Shown here: one piece after another, positions 2,964 through 36,541 of the stretch
Position numbering within the stretch: position 1 is the stretch's first letter
Layout: each line of letters begins with the position of its first letter
Source of the DNA: an uncultured bacterium
Lineage (GTDB): Bacteria; Armatimonadota; JACIXR01
Assembly: GCA_938041455.1 (NCBI GenBank)
Contig: CALITO010000040.1
Location: 1-37,382 of the forward strand
DNA: 37,382 nt
Direction: 5' to 3'
Notes under the pieces: model-generated
Databases searched by the model: none
What the model was told of the DNA's origin: nothing
The model's input: the letters and a program-made list of their open reading frames with translations, nothing else
Made by a program: the position numbers and the translations under genes

Positions 2964-5648
2964 ATGAGAAATTTCTTATTGCTTTTGTTTTTTATAAGTT
3001 GGGCTTTCTGCCAAACCCAATATGGTGCTTTGTCCCTTGAAACTCCGCCTACCATAGATGGAGATCTATCCGAGTATCAGGATAAGATGTTCATCTTCCT
3101 TCCCCATAGCGATATTCCCGAGACCCTGTGGCGGGGACCGCAGGATGCAGAGGCTAAGATTTGGATGTGCTGGGACAAGGGCAATCTATATATCGCAAGC
3201 GAGGTATGGGATGATTTCCTCGCCCAGAAAGGTGAGCCTTGGCAGGAAAGCCTCCAACTATGTCTCGCTCCTGACTTGGAGATAACTTGCTCCGCCCTAC
3301 AAAATAAGCTCTTCGCTTTCAAAAATGGCGTTCCCCTTGAAGTGTCTTTCCCTTACGCTATGAAATCAACCAACGCCTCCTACCAAGTAGAGATCGCTAT
3401 CCCTTGGAGCCTCCTCGAAATAACTCCTCCAGCAACCGCGTCAGAAGAAGTAGTAAAGGAACTATCTTTGAAGTTCAACGCAGTCTTATATGACACTGAT
3501 ATGGGTAGCTACCGTGGCTACCTCTCCTGGGCACCGGTAAAGGATTGGAAAGAGGGAATGGGGATAGTCAGAGATACTTCCCAATTCGGCGATGTAAGGG
3601 TTTCCACCCAACCCATCGCCACCCTGCAAATCGCCTTCTTCTTCGCTCCTTCCCCCCTCTATGTCAGCGATGAGGATGTAGATATCGTGCCCTGGCTTAT
3701 GTTCAATAGTGATTTCAAAGGGAAGTTTAGATTTACTTTGAAGAGAGGCGAGGAAACGCTTTTGGAGAAAGAAGAACAGTTGGAGAAACCGGCGGGCTTT
3801 TCTCCCTTCACCATTCGTTGGGATGCGAGGGGAAAACCAGAGGGTTCATACATAGCTGAGGCAGAGTTGACCATAGAGGGAATGGAAATAACGCCGAGCG
3901 CTACTTTAACTATAAATAAATACGACGCCCAAAGGCTCGCTAACTCGCTTCAAGAAGAACTCAACAATATGGCACAGTCTATTGCCCAAATTCAACCTCC
4001 CAAGAACTGGCGGGATGCGGTTATCGTCTTACAAGGGAACGCTTGGCAATCACGAGCATCCCCCCTTCTGGAACTTATTCACAAAAAGATAAAGGAAACA
4101 GCCCAAGCCGACCCTGATGCTTGTGTCTTGGCGAAGGCTTTCCTTTGGAATAGTAGGGAAGATGTGGCGATGTTAAAAGGGAGCTCGGCTCTTATAAGGA
4201 GAGAGTTCCAATCCCCTGCCCTTCAACCTTTTCCCACCCTTAAGTTGCCCGCATCCAAAGAGCTAACCTATGTTTGGAATTGGGAAAGATGGCAGGAAGG
4301 CGGTTCCTATGAACGACTGAGTTTGCTTTATGCTAATCTGCCGATAGCCAGCGCCGCGCTTTGGACCCATCAGAACCCGGCGGTTCTTTCCCTCCAAATG
4401 GATTCTCTTCTTGGGGATCTGGGGGACTCTTTCATCTCCTCAGAAAAGATAGGAGGTGCCGACTGGCAGGGATTGATAGTAGTGTCTCCGCAGGGTGGGG
4501 CTCGGCTAATAACCCTCCAAGGAAATAATCTTTGGCTCTTTGAGGCATTGAGCAGAGAGGCTTGTCTTTTCCTCTTGAATTCCGCCCTCTCAGGTAAGCC
4601 CATTTCAAAGATTGATAGCCTCCTTCCCCCCTTACAGCCCGACATATTCGTTGAGGATGTGGGTAATGCTATAGGTTTTAATTTCTCCACTGCTTGCTTC
4701 TTCGCTGCGAAGGATGATAGGGAATCCCTTCTCCTTGCCCAAGCACTGAGGGATAAGGTTGGGGGTAAAATGGCGAGGTTGGAGGAGGTGAACCGCTATA
4801 AGGATGTGGTGATAGTGGGCTCCACCGCCCTCCATCAATTGATAAGCGGTTTTAAACTGCCCGCCCCCGAACGAACCGCTTACATCCTCTCCCGCTACCT
4901 TTGGGGGAAGAACTTGTTGATTCTGGTAGGCAAGGAGCCCGAGGGAACCCGTCTTGCGGTGGAGGTTCTGGGAGATTTGATAGATTATATAAAGGATAGG
5001 AAGATGCTGGTAGGTGATGTGCAATCCTTCACAGCGTTTTCATCCGGCGAGCTGTCCCCTCTCCAGCTTTGTCTCTCCGCAATGGGGGGACTTTGCGATT
5101 TTCTTGGAATAGCGGATAAGGGGACAAGAGAGGGAGCAAAGGACGCCCTCTGGCTCTCCGCTGAGAAAAGTTGGAAATTGACCATCCTCCCAGGAGAAAC
5201 TTTCTCCTTCTCAAAAGGAAATATAGTGAGCCTTGGAACTATTGAGAGGGTTGACCCGGAGCAGGAGATAAGGGACCTTCTTTCTTCTATACATCAGGCA
5301 GGAGGTATAGCTATATTAGGAGGAAAGGACGAGAGCCTTCGGGGGCTCCCTTTTGACGCCTGGCTTATGGGGCGGGTGGGAAGCAGGTGGAAGGGAAAGC
5401 CGTTCGTTGCCGGAACAATGGGAGATTTTTCCTCCTCTTCAAGGACGATTGTCTGCAGTAAGGGAGAAGGTATTTACGACATCTTATCAGCGATAAGAAG
5501 GGGAGATTGCCTTGCCTTTTCCCCCTATCAAAGACTGGGGAGCGAGAAGGTTAATAGAATATTGAATATTTTGATAGATGAAAGGGCCCAACTTTCAAGA
5601 ATGTTCGAGGAAAGGGTGAGGGAAAAAGCTGGTGCTTTCTCATATTGA
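2964..5648 (+). CDS. Exported CBM9-like protein with degenerate C-terminal PHP (CehA/McbA-like) domain
   Basis: The 894-residue product begins with a signal peptide (MRNFLLLLFFISWAFC; the Cys may be a lipobox-like residue but this is weak). A CBM9-like domain follows (about 21-215: IDGDLSEY, then KIWMCWDKGNLYIASEVWDD). The middle (about 230-680) is unassigned beta/alpha sequence; around 625-675 it has a GKNLLILVGKEPEGTRLA segment reminiscent of domains preceding GH catalytic cores. The C-terminus (684-880) follows the order of a PHP domain, but its metal ligands are replaced: GDVQSFT for GDLHxHT, SSG for SDG, ADK for TDH, GNI for GHV, and GGK for AHP. AGGGGG-type ribosome site upstream. It is the first gene of a three-gene operon with overlapping or 2-nt junctions. 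A surface sugar-binding role is inferred; hydrolase activity is unlikely. Confidence 0.7.
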   Translation: MRNFLLLLFFISWAFCQTQYGALSLETPPTIDGDLSEYQDKMFIFLPHSDIPETLWRGPQDAEAKIWMCWDKGNLYIASEVWDDFLAQKGEPWQESLQLCLAPDLEITCSALQNKLFAFKNGVPLEVSFPYAMKSTNASYQVEIAIPWSLLEITPPATASEEVVKELSLKFNAVLYDTDMGSYRGYLSWAPVKDWKEGMGIVRDTSQFGDVRVSTQPIATLQIAFFFAPSPLYVSDEDVDIVPWLMFNSDFKGKFRFTLKRGEETLLEKEEQLEKPAGFSPFTIRWDARGKPEGSYIAEAELTIEGMEITPSATLTINKYDAQRLANSLQEELNNMAQSIAQIQPPKNWRDAVIVLQGNAWQSRASPLLELIHKKIKETAQADPDACVLAKAFLWNSREDVAMLKGSSALIRREFQSPALQPFPTLKLPASKELTYVWNWERWQEGGSYERLSLLYANLPIASAALWTHQNPAVLSLQMDSLLGDLGDSFISSEKIGGADWQGLIVVSPQGGARLITLQGNNLWLFEALSREACLFLLNSALSGKPISKIDSLLPPLQPDIFVEDVGNAIGFNFSTACFFAAKDDRESLLLAQALRDKVGGKMARLEEVNRYKDVVIVGSTALHQLISGFKLPAPERTAYILSRYLWGKNLLILVGKEPEGTRLAVEVLGDLIDYIKDRKMLVGDVQSFTAFSSGELSPLQLCLSAMGGLCDFLGIADKGTREGAKDALWLSAEKSWKLTILPGETFSFSKGNIVSLGTIERVDPEQEIRDLLSSIHQAGGIAILGGKDESLRGLPFDAWLMGRVGSRWKGKPFVAGTMGDFSSSSRTIVCSKGEGIYDILSAIRRGDCLAFSPYQRLGSEKVNRILNILIDERAQLSRMFEERVREKAGAFSY

Positions 5649-5668: not shown

Positions 5669-7240
5669 ATGGAGAAACTACCCTGGTATTCCCCAGATCT
5701 AATTAAAAGACTGGAACTTGCCACCCAATATCTATCGGGAATGATAGACAAAGACAGGGACGATGAACCCTATTTTTACATTGCCCGTAGGGATGACGGA
5801 ACCGCTTTTGCGGGGCACGCTATAGAGATAGGTATTCCCCATGTCACGGGAAGAGCTATAGACGCTCTCTTCTTTACGGAGGAAGTTGTTGGCCGCCCTG
5901 TTCCAGAGCACGCTGAGGAGATATATACACGGTATCTTCTCCAGTGCTACGACAACGAGGATTCACTTCCTTCCTTCTATCACCCTGAGACGGGAAAGCG
6001 CGGTGTCGAATTTCACAATATGAGGGAAGGATTGGAAGGCTTAACCTGGCTGATCAAAAGGAGAAACAACCAAAAAGCAAAGGATTTTGCCGATAAAATG
6101 CTGCGCACACTTGCTAGTATAACCGACGAAAAAGGAATGCTTTCCCTTGAACTGGTAAAGAAGATAGGGCGTGAGGGGGTATTCCAGGGTATAGGTGATG
6201 TACAGACAACCACAGCTGGACGCCTTGTTGGTCCGCTGGTATGGTATTACAAAGTTACTGGCGACCCTTTGGCTTTAGAGTTAGCCGATAAATACGCCCG
6301 AAATGTTATGGAACGCTCGTTCACTAAAGAGGGTTTACTGACAGACTTTGCGGGAAACCATATCCACTCCATAACCTCATCCCTCAGTGGCATATTGGAA
6401 TACGCCCTGGTGATGAAGGACGAGGAACTAACAGAAAAGGTGTGGAAGGTCTATGAGGTAGGATTAAGGGAATTCTACAGTAGTTATGGCTGGTGTAAAG
6501 AGATAGCTTGGACGGAATCAGATCAAGGTGAGGTCAACCAGATAGGCGACCTCGTCCAAATTCAGCTTCTCTTAGCGAAAGAAAAGGACACAAGATATTA
6601 TTCTCAAGCGGAGATATTTATGCGCTCTGCTCTCCTTCCCAGCCAGGTCTTAGAGAACGATTTCATAAAGGAGAATCCAAGCCCCAAGGGCGATTTTGAG
6701 AGAAATATGAAGGGGAGAATAATAGGGGGATTTGGGTTCCCTACACCCAGCGCTCATCTCCAAGCGCCTGATTCCCCCATCAATACCATTGATATAACCC
6801 AAGGGGCAGTCCAAGCAATTTGCAGGTTCACCCAACATATCATCACCCAAACCCCCCTTGGTATTCAGGTTAACCTTCTATTTAGCTGGGAGAACGAGTT
6901 AGCAAAGGTCGAAAGCTTCTTGCCCAAAGAGGGAAAGCTCGTAATCCATCCTAAAAAGCCAACGAACCTATTGGTGCGAATACCAAGGTGTATAGTTCCC
7001 AGCTCCCTTAGGGCAAGAGCGAACGGTGTAGAGATAGAAGGCAAGCGGTTTAGTGAATATCTTCTCCTACCAAATAGTTCCACAAAGACTGAATTTCTGG
7101 TAACCTTTGCTCCTGAACGGTATGAAACATTTGAATTTATTAACCACAAACCCTATAAGATAAATTGGTTTGGTGAACAGGTCATCGGCATATCCCCAGT
7201 AAGTGGTATTTATCCACTCTTCGGAGAAGGGAGGTTTTAA
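5669..7240 (+). CDS. GH127-like (alpha/alpha)6 glycosidase (DUF1680-related)
   Basis: The 523-residue product has no signal peptide, so it is probably cytoplasmic. The N-terminal 380 residues are helical and Trp/Tyr-rich, with HVTGRAIDALFF, EFHNMREGLEGLTWL and HIHSITSSLSG segments. The C-terminus is a beta domain with LLVRIPRCIV and RARANGVEI, similar in layout to the end of beta-L-arabinofuranosidase (GH127) proteins, whose function is to release arabinose. A possible catalytic Cys-Glu neighbourhood is YGWCKEIAWTESDQGE, but it cannot be aligned with confidence. An in-frame TTG at 5645 overlaps the upstream stop but has no ribosome site, whereas GAGGT (5657-5661) lies 7 nt before the ATG at 5669, so the later start is preferred. 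The family is moderately sure, the substrate unknown; GH88/105-type proteins share the fold. Confidence 0.6.
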   Translation: MEKLPWYSPDLIKRLELATQYLSGMIDKDRDDEPYFYIARRDDGTAFAGHAIEIGIPHVTGRAIDALFFTEEVVGRPVPEHAEEIYTRYLLQCYDNEDSLPSFYHPETGKRGVEFHNMREGLEGLTWLIKRRNNQKAKDFADKMLRTLASITDEKGMLSLELVKKIGREGVFQGIGDVQTTTAGRLVGPLVWYYKVTGDPLALELADKYARNVMERSFTKEGLLTDFAGNHIHSITSSLSGILEYALVMKDEELTEKVWKVYEVGLREFYSSYGWCKEIAWTESDQGEVNQIGDLVQIQLLLAKEKDTRYYSQAEIFMRSALLPSQVLENDFIKENPSPKGDFERNMKGRIIGGFGFPTPSAHLQAPDSPINTIDITQGAVQAICRFTQHIITQTPLGIQVNLLFSWENELAKVESFLPKEGKLVIHPKKPTNLLVRIPRCIVPSSLRARANGVEIEGKRFSEYLLLPNSSTKTEFLVTFAPERYETFEFINHKPYKINWFGEQVIGISPVSGIYPLFGEGRF

Positions 7241-7242
7241 CA

Positions 7243-8760
7243 ATGTTGATAATTCTTTTAGCATTAGGAGTAGTTGGGGGCACTTTCGGTGAGGATTTGC
7301 TCGTTTGGACCGAGCCCGCTACATTGAAGGTCTTCAAGGATAGCGAGCCCAAAATTGGGCGTTCCCGACTGATACTGCACTGCGCTCGCAACGAATATGA
7401 ATCAGGGCAGATAGTTTTACGAGCGGAAGAGAAACCCCTCAGGATAACAAATGTCAAGGCATATCCTCTAAAAGGACCAAGAGGTAGCACAATCGGAGCG
7501 GAAAATATCCAAATCCGCTTAGTTGGTTATGTGTTAGTAAGACATGAAAACAAGTTTTATCCTGACCCCCTACCCCCCTTCCGCCCCTTTGAGATACAAC
7601 CTGGGGAGAATCAACCCCTCTTGGTAACTGTATATGTGCCAAAAGAAGCAATAGCAGGAAGATATACTGGGAACATAGAGATAAGTTTGGAGGATAAGAG
7701 GAGGATAGAAGTTCCGATATCCTTAGAAGTATGGGATTTCGTTTTGCCTGACAAGCCTTCAAGCGAAACAGCCTTTGGGTTGTGGGAAGATTCAATTAGT
7801 AAGTTTGAGGTAGTCCAACCAGGGAGTCCTGAGGCGAAAGCTATGTATGAAAAGTATTATTGGCTTCTGGTGGAGCACCGCATCAGTCCCTATTCCATGC
7901 CGGTGGACATATTATCTCCCGAAGCGGATAGATATCTAAACGATCCTCGTGTGACGACCTTCCTCATACCCTACAGCGACGATGTGGAAGAAATGAGGAA
8001 GAGAGTGGAATATGCTCGTAAGAAAGGATGGTTGGACAAGGCGTACTTCTATCCTCTTGATGAGCCCGTCACCAAGGAGCATTATGAGGAGCTAAAGAGA
8101 AGGGTGGAGAAAATAAAGAGCATAGACCCGAATTTGCGTATTGTTTCCCCCTTCTACCGGGGTCCCGATTTCAGTGAGGAGACCGCTTACGAAGCGTTAG
8201 ATGGCATAATCAATATATGGTGTGCGGTGAGCAGTTATTTTGACCCCCAAAAACAGTTAGCCAAGAAGGAGAGGGGGGAATCCTCTTGGTGGTATGTTTG
8301 CTGTGGGCCCGGTTCTCCTTATGCGAATTTTCACATCACGATGGACGCTATTGACCATCGCATCCTGATGTGGCAGCAGAAGAAGTATCGGGTGGATGGG
8401 CTTCTTTATTGGGGCGTTAACTATTGGCTCGGAACCACTGACCCCTGGGAGGATATGGCAACGGTTAAGGGTATAAACCCCGATCTCTATGGTGATGGTT
8501 CACTGCTCTACCCAGGGAAGAAGATAGGGGTCGACGGACCTATTGCCTCCCTAAGGCTGGAAATGATAAGGAATGGCTTTGAAGACTACGAGTATCTCAC
8601 CTTGCTAGAGAAAATGGTGGGCAGGGAAGCAGTGGAGAAAGCAATAGACGAGGTGGTTACAGATATGACCCACTTCACAAAGGACCCTGCCCTTTTGGAA
8701 AAGGTAAGGGCTAAGATAGCGAAGGAAATAGAAAAAAGAAAAGGACGTTTGGGGAAGTAA
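7243..8760 (+). CDS. Secreted DUF4091 (GH123-like) protein
   Basis: The 505-residue product has a short signal peptide (MLIILLALGVVGGTFG). The N-terminal beta domain carries the family phrase ARNEYESGQIVLRA (about 44-57). A TIM-barrel region follows with the adjacent Asp-Glu pair in FYPLDEPVTKEH (about 270-281), equivalent to the paired acidic residues used by GH123 N-acetylgalactosaminidases. The C-terminal SLRLEMIRNGFEDYEYL is the signature of DUF4091. It begins 2 nt after the upstream stop, and its AGGGAGG ribosome site lies inside the end of that gene, so it is translated as part of the operon. The retained acidic pair suggests an active enzyme on amino-sugar or other glycans, but the substrate is not predictable. 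Confidence 0.8.
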   Translation: MLIILLALGVVGGTFGEDLLVWTEPATLKVFKDSEPKIGRSRLILHCARNEYESGQIVLRAEEKPLRITNVKAYPLKGPRGSTIGAENIQIRLVGYVLVRHENKFYPDPLPPFRPFEIQPGENQPLLVTVYVPKEAIAGRYTGNIEISLEDKRRIEVPISLEVWDFVLPDKPSSETAFGLWEDSISKFEVVQPGSPEAKAMYEKYYWLLVEHRISPYSMPVDILSPEADRYLNDPRVTTFLIPYSDDVEEMRKRVEYARKKGWLDKAYFYPLDEPVTKEHYEELKRRVEKIKSIDPNLRIVSPFYRGPDFSEETAYEALDGIINIWCAVSSYFDPQKQLAKKERGESSWWYVCCGPGSPYANFHITMDAIDHRILMWQQKKYRVDGLLYWGVNYWLGTTDPWEDMATVKGINPDLYGDGSLLYPGKKIGVDGPIASLRLEMIRNGFEDYEYLTLLEKMVGREAVEKAIDEVVTDMTHFTKDPALLEKVRAKIAKEIEKRKGRLGK

Positions 8761-35815: not shown

Positions 35816-36541
35816 ATGAAGGTGAAAAAAGGGTTTACCTTGATAGAACTGTTGGTAGTGATAGCCATCATCTCTATTCTCGCCGCGATACTCTTCCCAG
35901 TGTTCAGCCGAGCAAGGGAACAAGCACGGAAAGCGGTTTGTATGTCCAATGCGAGGCAGATGGGACAAGCTATAATGATGTATGTTCAAGACTGGGATGA
36001 GTGCTATCCCTTCGCCCATGTTGGTTGGGGGTCTCCTTGCACCGGTCCCGAAAATACATATTTTTATACTTGGAGGATGTTGATCTACCCCTATGTCAAA
36101 AACTTGGGGGTATATGATTGCCCTTCTATACCCCACCTGTGGTGGTATGAGGAAACAATGACCCAGCCTGGTGCGAGCTGGATACCACGCACCGTCGACC
36201 TTGACTACCAAATGTCTGGTGATGCCTTCTGCGGCTGTTGGTATTGTGGCCTGAACACGCCAGGCTATCCAAGGAGAACGGCAGATTTCCAGCGGCCCAG
36301 TCAACTCATAATGGTCAAGGAGCTCTATTCCACTGTCGCTGCCCAGCCCTCGTATTGCGTGGACAACTTCAACAAGGAGAATAACTACCATAGTGGTGGG
36401 AGAGTCTATGTTTTTGCCGATGGGCATGTGAAATGGCTCAAACCTTCGCAGACCACCTCTCCCGTTAATTTGTGGCACGAAAAACTACCACCCCTCACAC
36501 CCTACGACCACACCTGTAACGACGACTACGAGTATGAGTAA
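35816..36541 (+). CDS. Prepilin-like exported protein with DUF1559 H-x9-DG tail
   Basis: The 241-residue protein starts with a type IV prepilin leader (MKVKKG, cleavage before FTLIELLVVIAIISILAAIL) and the neck FPVFSRAREQARKAVCMSNA. The body is Cys/Trp/Tyr-rich (CPSIPHLWWYEE; CGCWYCGLNTPGYP). The tail YHSGGRVYVFADGHVKW has the exact H-x9-DG motif that defines this family. A prepilin peptidase would cut and methylate it and a type II/IV-type machine would assemble it; neither is in the window. Armatimonadota and Planctomycetota genomes carry many such genes. It has a strong AGGAGG ribosome site and a structured leader. Confidence 0.92.
   Translation: MKVKKGFTLIELLVVIAIISILAAILFPVFSRAREQARKAVCMSNARQMGQAIMMYVQDWDECYPFAHVGWGSPCTGPENTYFYTWRMLIYPYVKNLGVYDCPSIPHLWWYEETMTQPGASWIPRTVDLDYQMSGDAFCGCWYCGLNTPGYPRRTADFQRPSQLIMVKELYSTVAAQPSYCVDNFNKENNYHSGGRVYVFADGHVKWLKPSQTTSPVNLWHEKLPPLTPYDHTCNDDYEYE

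Follow-up and report, generated by a model that had tools for sequence, protein, structure and literature searches.

A PHP-type domain without its canonical metal ligands in a probably exported CBM9-like protein of the Armatimonadota

The window analysed here, a 37,382-nucleotide stretch of DNA from an uncultured bacterium of the Armatimonadota, encodes an 894-residue product whose C-terminal ~200 residues are shown by sequence comparison to be homologous to PHP metallohydrolases, and in which each of the nine canonical metal-ligand sites is substituted or gapped. We consider it fairly probable that this ligand-stripped domain is kept as a non-catalytic, mainly structural or docking module of an exported multidomain protein. 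Degenerate PHP domains are best known from bacterial replicases; the present case concerns a probably exported multidomain protein in which every ligand is gone, and the occurrence of forms with and without the metal site in one phylum offers a tractable pair for asking what the PHP fold is kept for after catalysis.

Domain layout and homology to PHP metallohydrolases

From N- to C-terminus the product comprises a signal-peptide-like start, called by eye, a CBM9-like domain, a middle region, an alpha/beta region, the degenerate PHP domain and a C-terminal helix (Table 1). The initial annotation, which covered residues 681-894 of the product, had described a PHP pattern at the C-terminus with its hydrophobic framework kept and a fusion to a CBM9-like N-terminus, and our analysis bears out these descriptions. 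The motifs GDVQSFT, SSG, ADK, GNI and GGK are all found in the product, in place and in order, and the framework is indeed retained. The N-terminal domain is the only Pfam domain found in the protein, scoring 33.3 bits against PF06452 (CBM9_1) where the gathering cut-off is 23.4, and the N-terminal part used alone as a query retrieves the CBM9 structure 1i82 from the PDB. Sugar binding by the domain is putative. Residue W94 aligns with a Trp in the CBM9 of the Thermotoga xylanase (1i82), a position occupied by Thr in the congener G002. In the orthologue from that genome (L057:3244-6030 (+)) the CBM9-like domain is followed by a Pro-rich repeated linker of TQPSTP/TQPSAP units, which is missing in the other two species of the genus. 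A PDB search with the alpha/beta region gave no clear match.

In order to compare the C-terminal domain with PHP proteins, a profile of the three congeneric degenerate domains (A9) was aligned by hhalign with a profile of five ligand-keeping PHP domains (A10), giving a probability of 99.4%, an E-value of 3.7e-21 and a score of 138.8 over 207 columns. Forty column-shuffled versions of A10 used as a control scored at most 17.6 and the reversed profile scored 14.1. The C-terminal half of the protein is also collinear over 442 columns with a ligand-keeping protein from Hebobacteria (E 1.7e-21). When the isolated window domain was searched against NCBIfam it matched the RNase RNM model NF047791, of the PHP family, at E 2.5e-4, with segment residues 4-68 falling on model positions 3-67. 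Searched against the PDB, the degenerate profile alone returned PHP enzymes as its top two matches (E 0.012 for 9etk and 0.13 for the second), and the A10 profile recovered structures of PHP proteins, 3e0f and 3e38 among them, with E-values of 1e-13 to 1e-12. The window protein has no match to the Pfam PHP family PF02811; neither does it match the CehA/McbA model NF038032, which has a curated cut-off of 80 bits. AlphaFold models built from three-row alignments had a pLDDT of 46.6 for residues 425-894 and 40.1 for the PHP part alone, and a Foldseek search with the first of these poor models placed six chains of TM0559 (PHP, 2anu) among the first 11 hits, at E-values of about 0.01 and a low TM-score, which we regard as too weak to argue for an intact (beta/alpha)7 barrel. 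A scan of viral contigs for further PHP sequences returned none.

Table 1 Features of the PHP-bearing gene, its product and the gene that follows it, in window positions
Feature	Position	Strand	Basis and remarks
894-aa gene	2964..5648	+	ORF; two congeneric genomes have orthologues 53-60% identical along their whole length
CBM9-like domain, residues ~18-215	3015..3608	+	PF06452, 33.3 bits; PDB 1i82 CBM9, E 0.001
Alpha/beta region, residues 425-678	4236..4997	+	common to ligand-keeping relatives; alignment A7
Degenerate PHP domain, residues 679-879	4998..5600	+	hhalign, shuffle control, NF047791, PDB 9etk
Site 1, His to Gln687	5022..5024	+	alignment; Q/Q/Q in three species
Site 2, His to Phe689	5028..5030	+	alignment; F/F/F in three species
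Site 3, Asp to Ser694	5043..5045	+	alignment; S/T/A in three species
Site 4, His to Lys719	5118..5120	+	alignment; K/K/V in three species
Site 5, Glu of GxE to Thr746	5199..5201	+	T/T/T in three species; E68 invariant in A10
Site 6, Asn753	5220..5222	+	N/E/E in three species; Glu in G024 ligand-keeping relatives
Site 7, His to Gly787	5322..5324	+	G/gap/G in three species; followed by a shortening of ~20-25 residues
Site 8, Asp to Gly820; site 9, gap	5421..5423	+	G/G/G in three species
Next gene, GH127-like (weak)	5669..7240	+	PF07944, 18 bits, below cut-off; probable start ATG 5669

The metal site and its distribution among relatives

The nine sites were numbered as in the study of the Pol III PHP domain (PMC3666897), the canonical ligands being HxH, D, H, E, H, H/C and D-x-H. 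None of the residues found at these positions in the window protein is canonical (Table 1), in agreement with the earlier claim that all metal ligands have been lost, and the changes extend beyond those first described to site 5 (Thr746) and to the D-x-H pair of sites 8 and 9 (G820 and a gap). The Glu of the PGETF motif was considered as a retained ligand at site 5 and rejected, as it lies one residue early and the GEEV/GAEV motifs of relatives align on the Thr that follows. The change at site 6, the His of the GHV motif, says little by itself because the nearest ligand-keeping relatives, both paralogues of genome G024, have Glu there. Between sites 7 and 8 the domain has been shortened, this segment measuring 24-30 residues in the genus versus 47-50 in ligand-keeping relatives of the same architecture, and the barrel may as a result be incomplete.

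Full-length orthologues are present in both other genomes of the genus (G001 and G002), and the metal site is lost in all three sampled species, with no stop or frameshift in any of them. More distant relatives were found through the C-terminal half, namely two paralogues in G024, one protein in G288 and one in G013, and the alpha/beta region used as a query recovered only these four and the three proteins of the genus, 7 in all, in 291 Armatimonadota genomes. A pattern search of a public genome collection, of limited reach, returned only one congener and the Candidatus Hebobacteria protein. The search for homologues that keep the ligands, proposed in the initial annotation, was successful, with proteins of the same architecture in two other Armatimonadota genomes: the G024 pair (L058, L022) and the G288 protein (L067) have the complete series H,H,D,H,E,H,D,H over eight sites. 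These ligand-keeping relatives score 45.8-58.8 bits against NF038032, under its cut-off. In the G013 relative (L024:4607-6613 (-)) all ligands are changed and 164 residues remain between the domain start and the C-terminus. This remnant, the most reduced form that we observed, is without the segment from about site 6 to site 8. A tree built on the alpha/beta region left G013 unplaced and did not separate shared from independent ligand loss.

Sequence constraint and gene neighbourhood

When the PHP part was compared with that of G001, the first, second and third codon positions were identical at fractions of 0.65, 0.82 and 0.36; the comparison with G002 gave 0.67, 0.73 and 0.33. With the third position near saturation and the first two held, we conclude that the protein sequence is being maintained. 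Amino-acid identity in this part is 57% and 53% to G001 and G002 respectively, values within the 45-66% obtained for the remaining regions of the protein. Residues invariant in the three species make up 16 of 41 positions flanking the old metal site and 65 of 167 elsewhere (p = 1). As the invariant residues are not centred on the old site, a structural role is favoured over a reused pocket, with the reservation that a comparison of three sequences is a weak test. The diffuse pattern is what a structural role would predict, and it does not speak for the proposal, made when the domain was first described, that the fold had been reused for binding.

The GH127-like gene has its probable start 20 bases past the stop codon of the PHP-bearing gene and is followed by a GH123 gene; the PHP-bearing and GH127-like genes are likely to be co-transcribed in the window. 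In both congeners the orthologue of the GH127-like gene (79-82% identical) is found at another locus, in G002 alongside the GH123 orthologue. Since neither congener has the PHP-bearing gene beside the GH127-like and GH123 orthologues, which occupy other loci there, the link to glycosidases is not a conserved one. The placing of the gene in a glycosidase operon proved weak, and we have therefore dropped operon context. The GH127-like/GH123 pair of the window (5669-8760) occurs in G002 (L071) apart from the PHP-bearing gene, which in that genome is preceded by another, different GH127 gene. Downstream of the PHP-bearing gene both congeners have a convergent gene for a sodium/bile-acid symporter (PF01758; L025:13679-14851 (-) and L057:6963-7748 (-)), which is not found in the window. 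Genes for DUF1559/N-methylation (prepilin-like) proteins are present in the window (35816-36541) and near both congener orthologues (L025:3446-4291 (-) and L057:230-778).

Possible roles of the domain and comparison with known systems

In E. coli Pol III, five of the nine PHP ligands are replaced, and the domain, which does not bind metal, contributes to the stability and activity of the polymerase (PMC3666897). This variant domain of DnaE (2hnh, PMC3666897) is likewise a ligand-losing PHP kept inside a larger protein, and a structural role is established there. It differs from the window domain in belonging to a cytoplasmic replicase and in having a remarkably conserved structure with five of nine ligands changed, whereas the window protein is probably exported, has all nine changed and has lost part of the domain. 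In our partial coverage of the literature on inactive or carbohydrate-associated PHP domains we found nothing nearer than the Pol III case. Under the explanation we prefer, the C-terminal ~200 residues would descend from a metal-dependent hydrolase that is extant with its ligands in Armatimonadota proteins of the same architecture. Within the genus the metal site would have been dismantled and the domain shortened between sites 7 and 8, and what was left would have been retained, without catalytic function, as one module of a multidomain protein that is exported. Such a degenerate domain would have neither metal binding nor hydrolase activity, and by analogy with the variant PHP of Pol III it would stabilise the neighbouring alpha/beta region and the C-terminal helix.

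The old active-site cleft may instead have become a metal-free pocket for a sugar, a sugar phosphate or a cell-wall polymer, acting with the CBM9-like domain on the same chain. The same replacement is fixed in the three species at four of eight aligned ligand positions (Q687, F689, T746 and G820), which could also fit a reused pocket, and glycosidase genes (GH127-like and GH123) adjoin the gene in the window, as does a different GH127 gene in G002. The comparison of invariant residues has low power with the form known from three species only; even so, conservation round the old site does not exceed that in the remainder of the domain, the loop joining sites 7 and 8 has been cut, the gene neighbourhood is not conserved and one congener has Thr where the CBM9 tryptophan aligns, and we judge a reused pocket to be rather unlikely. 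A broader version, in which PHP hydrolase domains of exported proteins were converted more than once within the Armatimonadota into non-enzymatic modules for extracellular recognition, with the cleft as the ligand site and the window protein as one case, appears to us unlikely.

The truncated G013 relative, with all its ligands changed and its mid-domain missing, would be in keeping with a functionless vestige in the process of being lost and kept only because truncation would harm the protein. Against this stand the strong asymmetry between codon positions, the domain identity of 53-57% within the genus and three species without stop or frameshift, so that a vestige seems distinctly improbable. 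PHP families vary at single sites and several acidic residues are left in the segment, which would be in keeping with a domain that still binds metal or catalyses through new residues; with all nine sites substituted or deleted, and with the Glu at site 6 of the congeners as the sole good ligand replacement, we regard continued metal chemistry as very improbable. That the segment belongs to another alpha/beta fold and resembles PHP motifs by chance is hardly credible: while the window protein has no Pfam PHP match and its AlphaFold models have low pLDDT, the profile-profile match withstands the shuffle control, the alignment with the ligand-keeping protein is collinear over its whole length and there is an independent single-sequence match to RNase RNM. 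A non-catalytic, mainly structural or docking module is the account we retain as probable.

Two other PHP systems bear on the comparison. The first ~65 residues of the window domain are in register with RNase RNM/RNase AM (NF047791, 7ug9, 9etk), which are active metal-dependent nucleases, whereas the window domain is without a metal site. The CehA/McbA model (NF038032) is matched below its cut-off by the ligand-keeping relatives and not by the window protein, which has no ligands.

A separate family of proteins of ~520-740 residues (L081-L104, L041, L046), distributed over the Armatimonadota families f10, f26, f29, f41, f42, f44 and f45, has a degenerate PHP domain of its own. Its usual losses are His to Arg at site 1 (DLRV) and at site 4 (ADR), with sites 8 and 9 changed to N/S and P or others, and the Asp of site 3 and His of site 7 are mostly kept; L100, L102 and L103 are less uniform and L103 keeps five of the nine ligands. 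This family is larger, has a different set of lost ligands and comes from the same phylum, which suggests that such losses recur. A partial PHP variant was also observed in L021, L033, L035, L042 and L054, in which sites 1, 2, 5 and 7 are kept and sites 3 and 4 are lost (HHxxEH).
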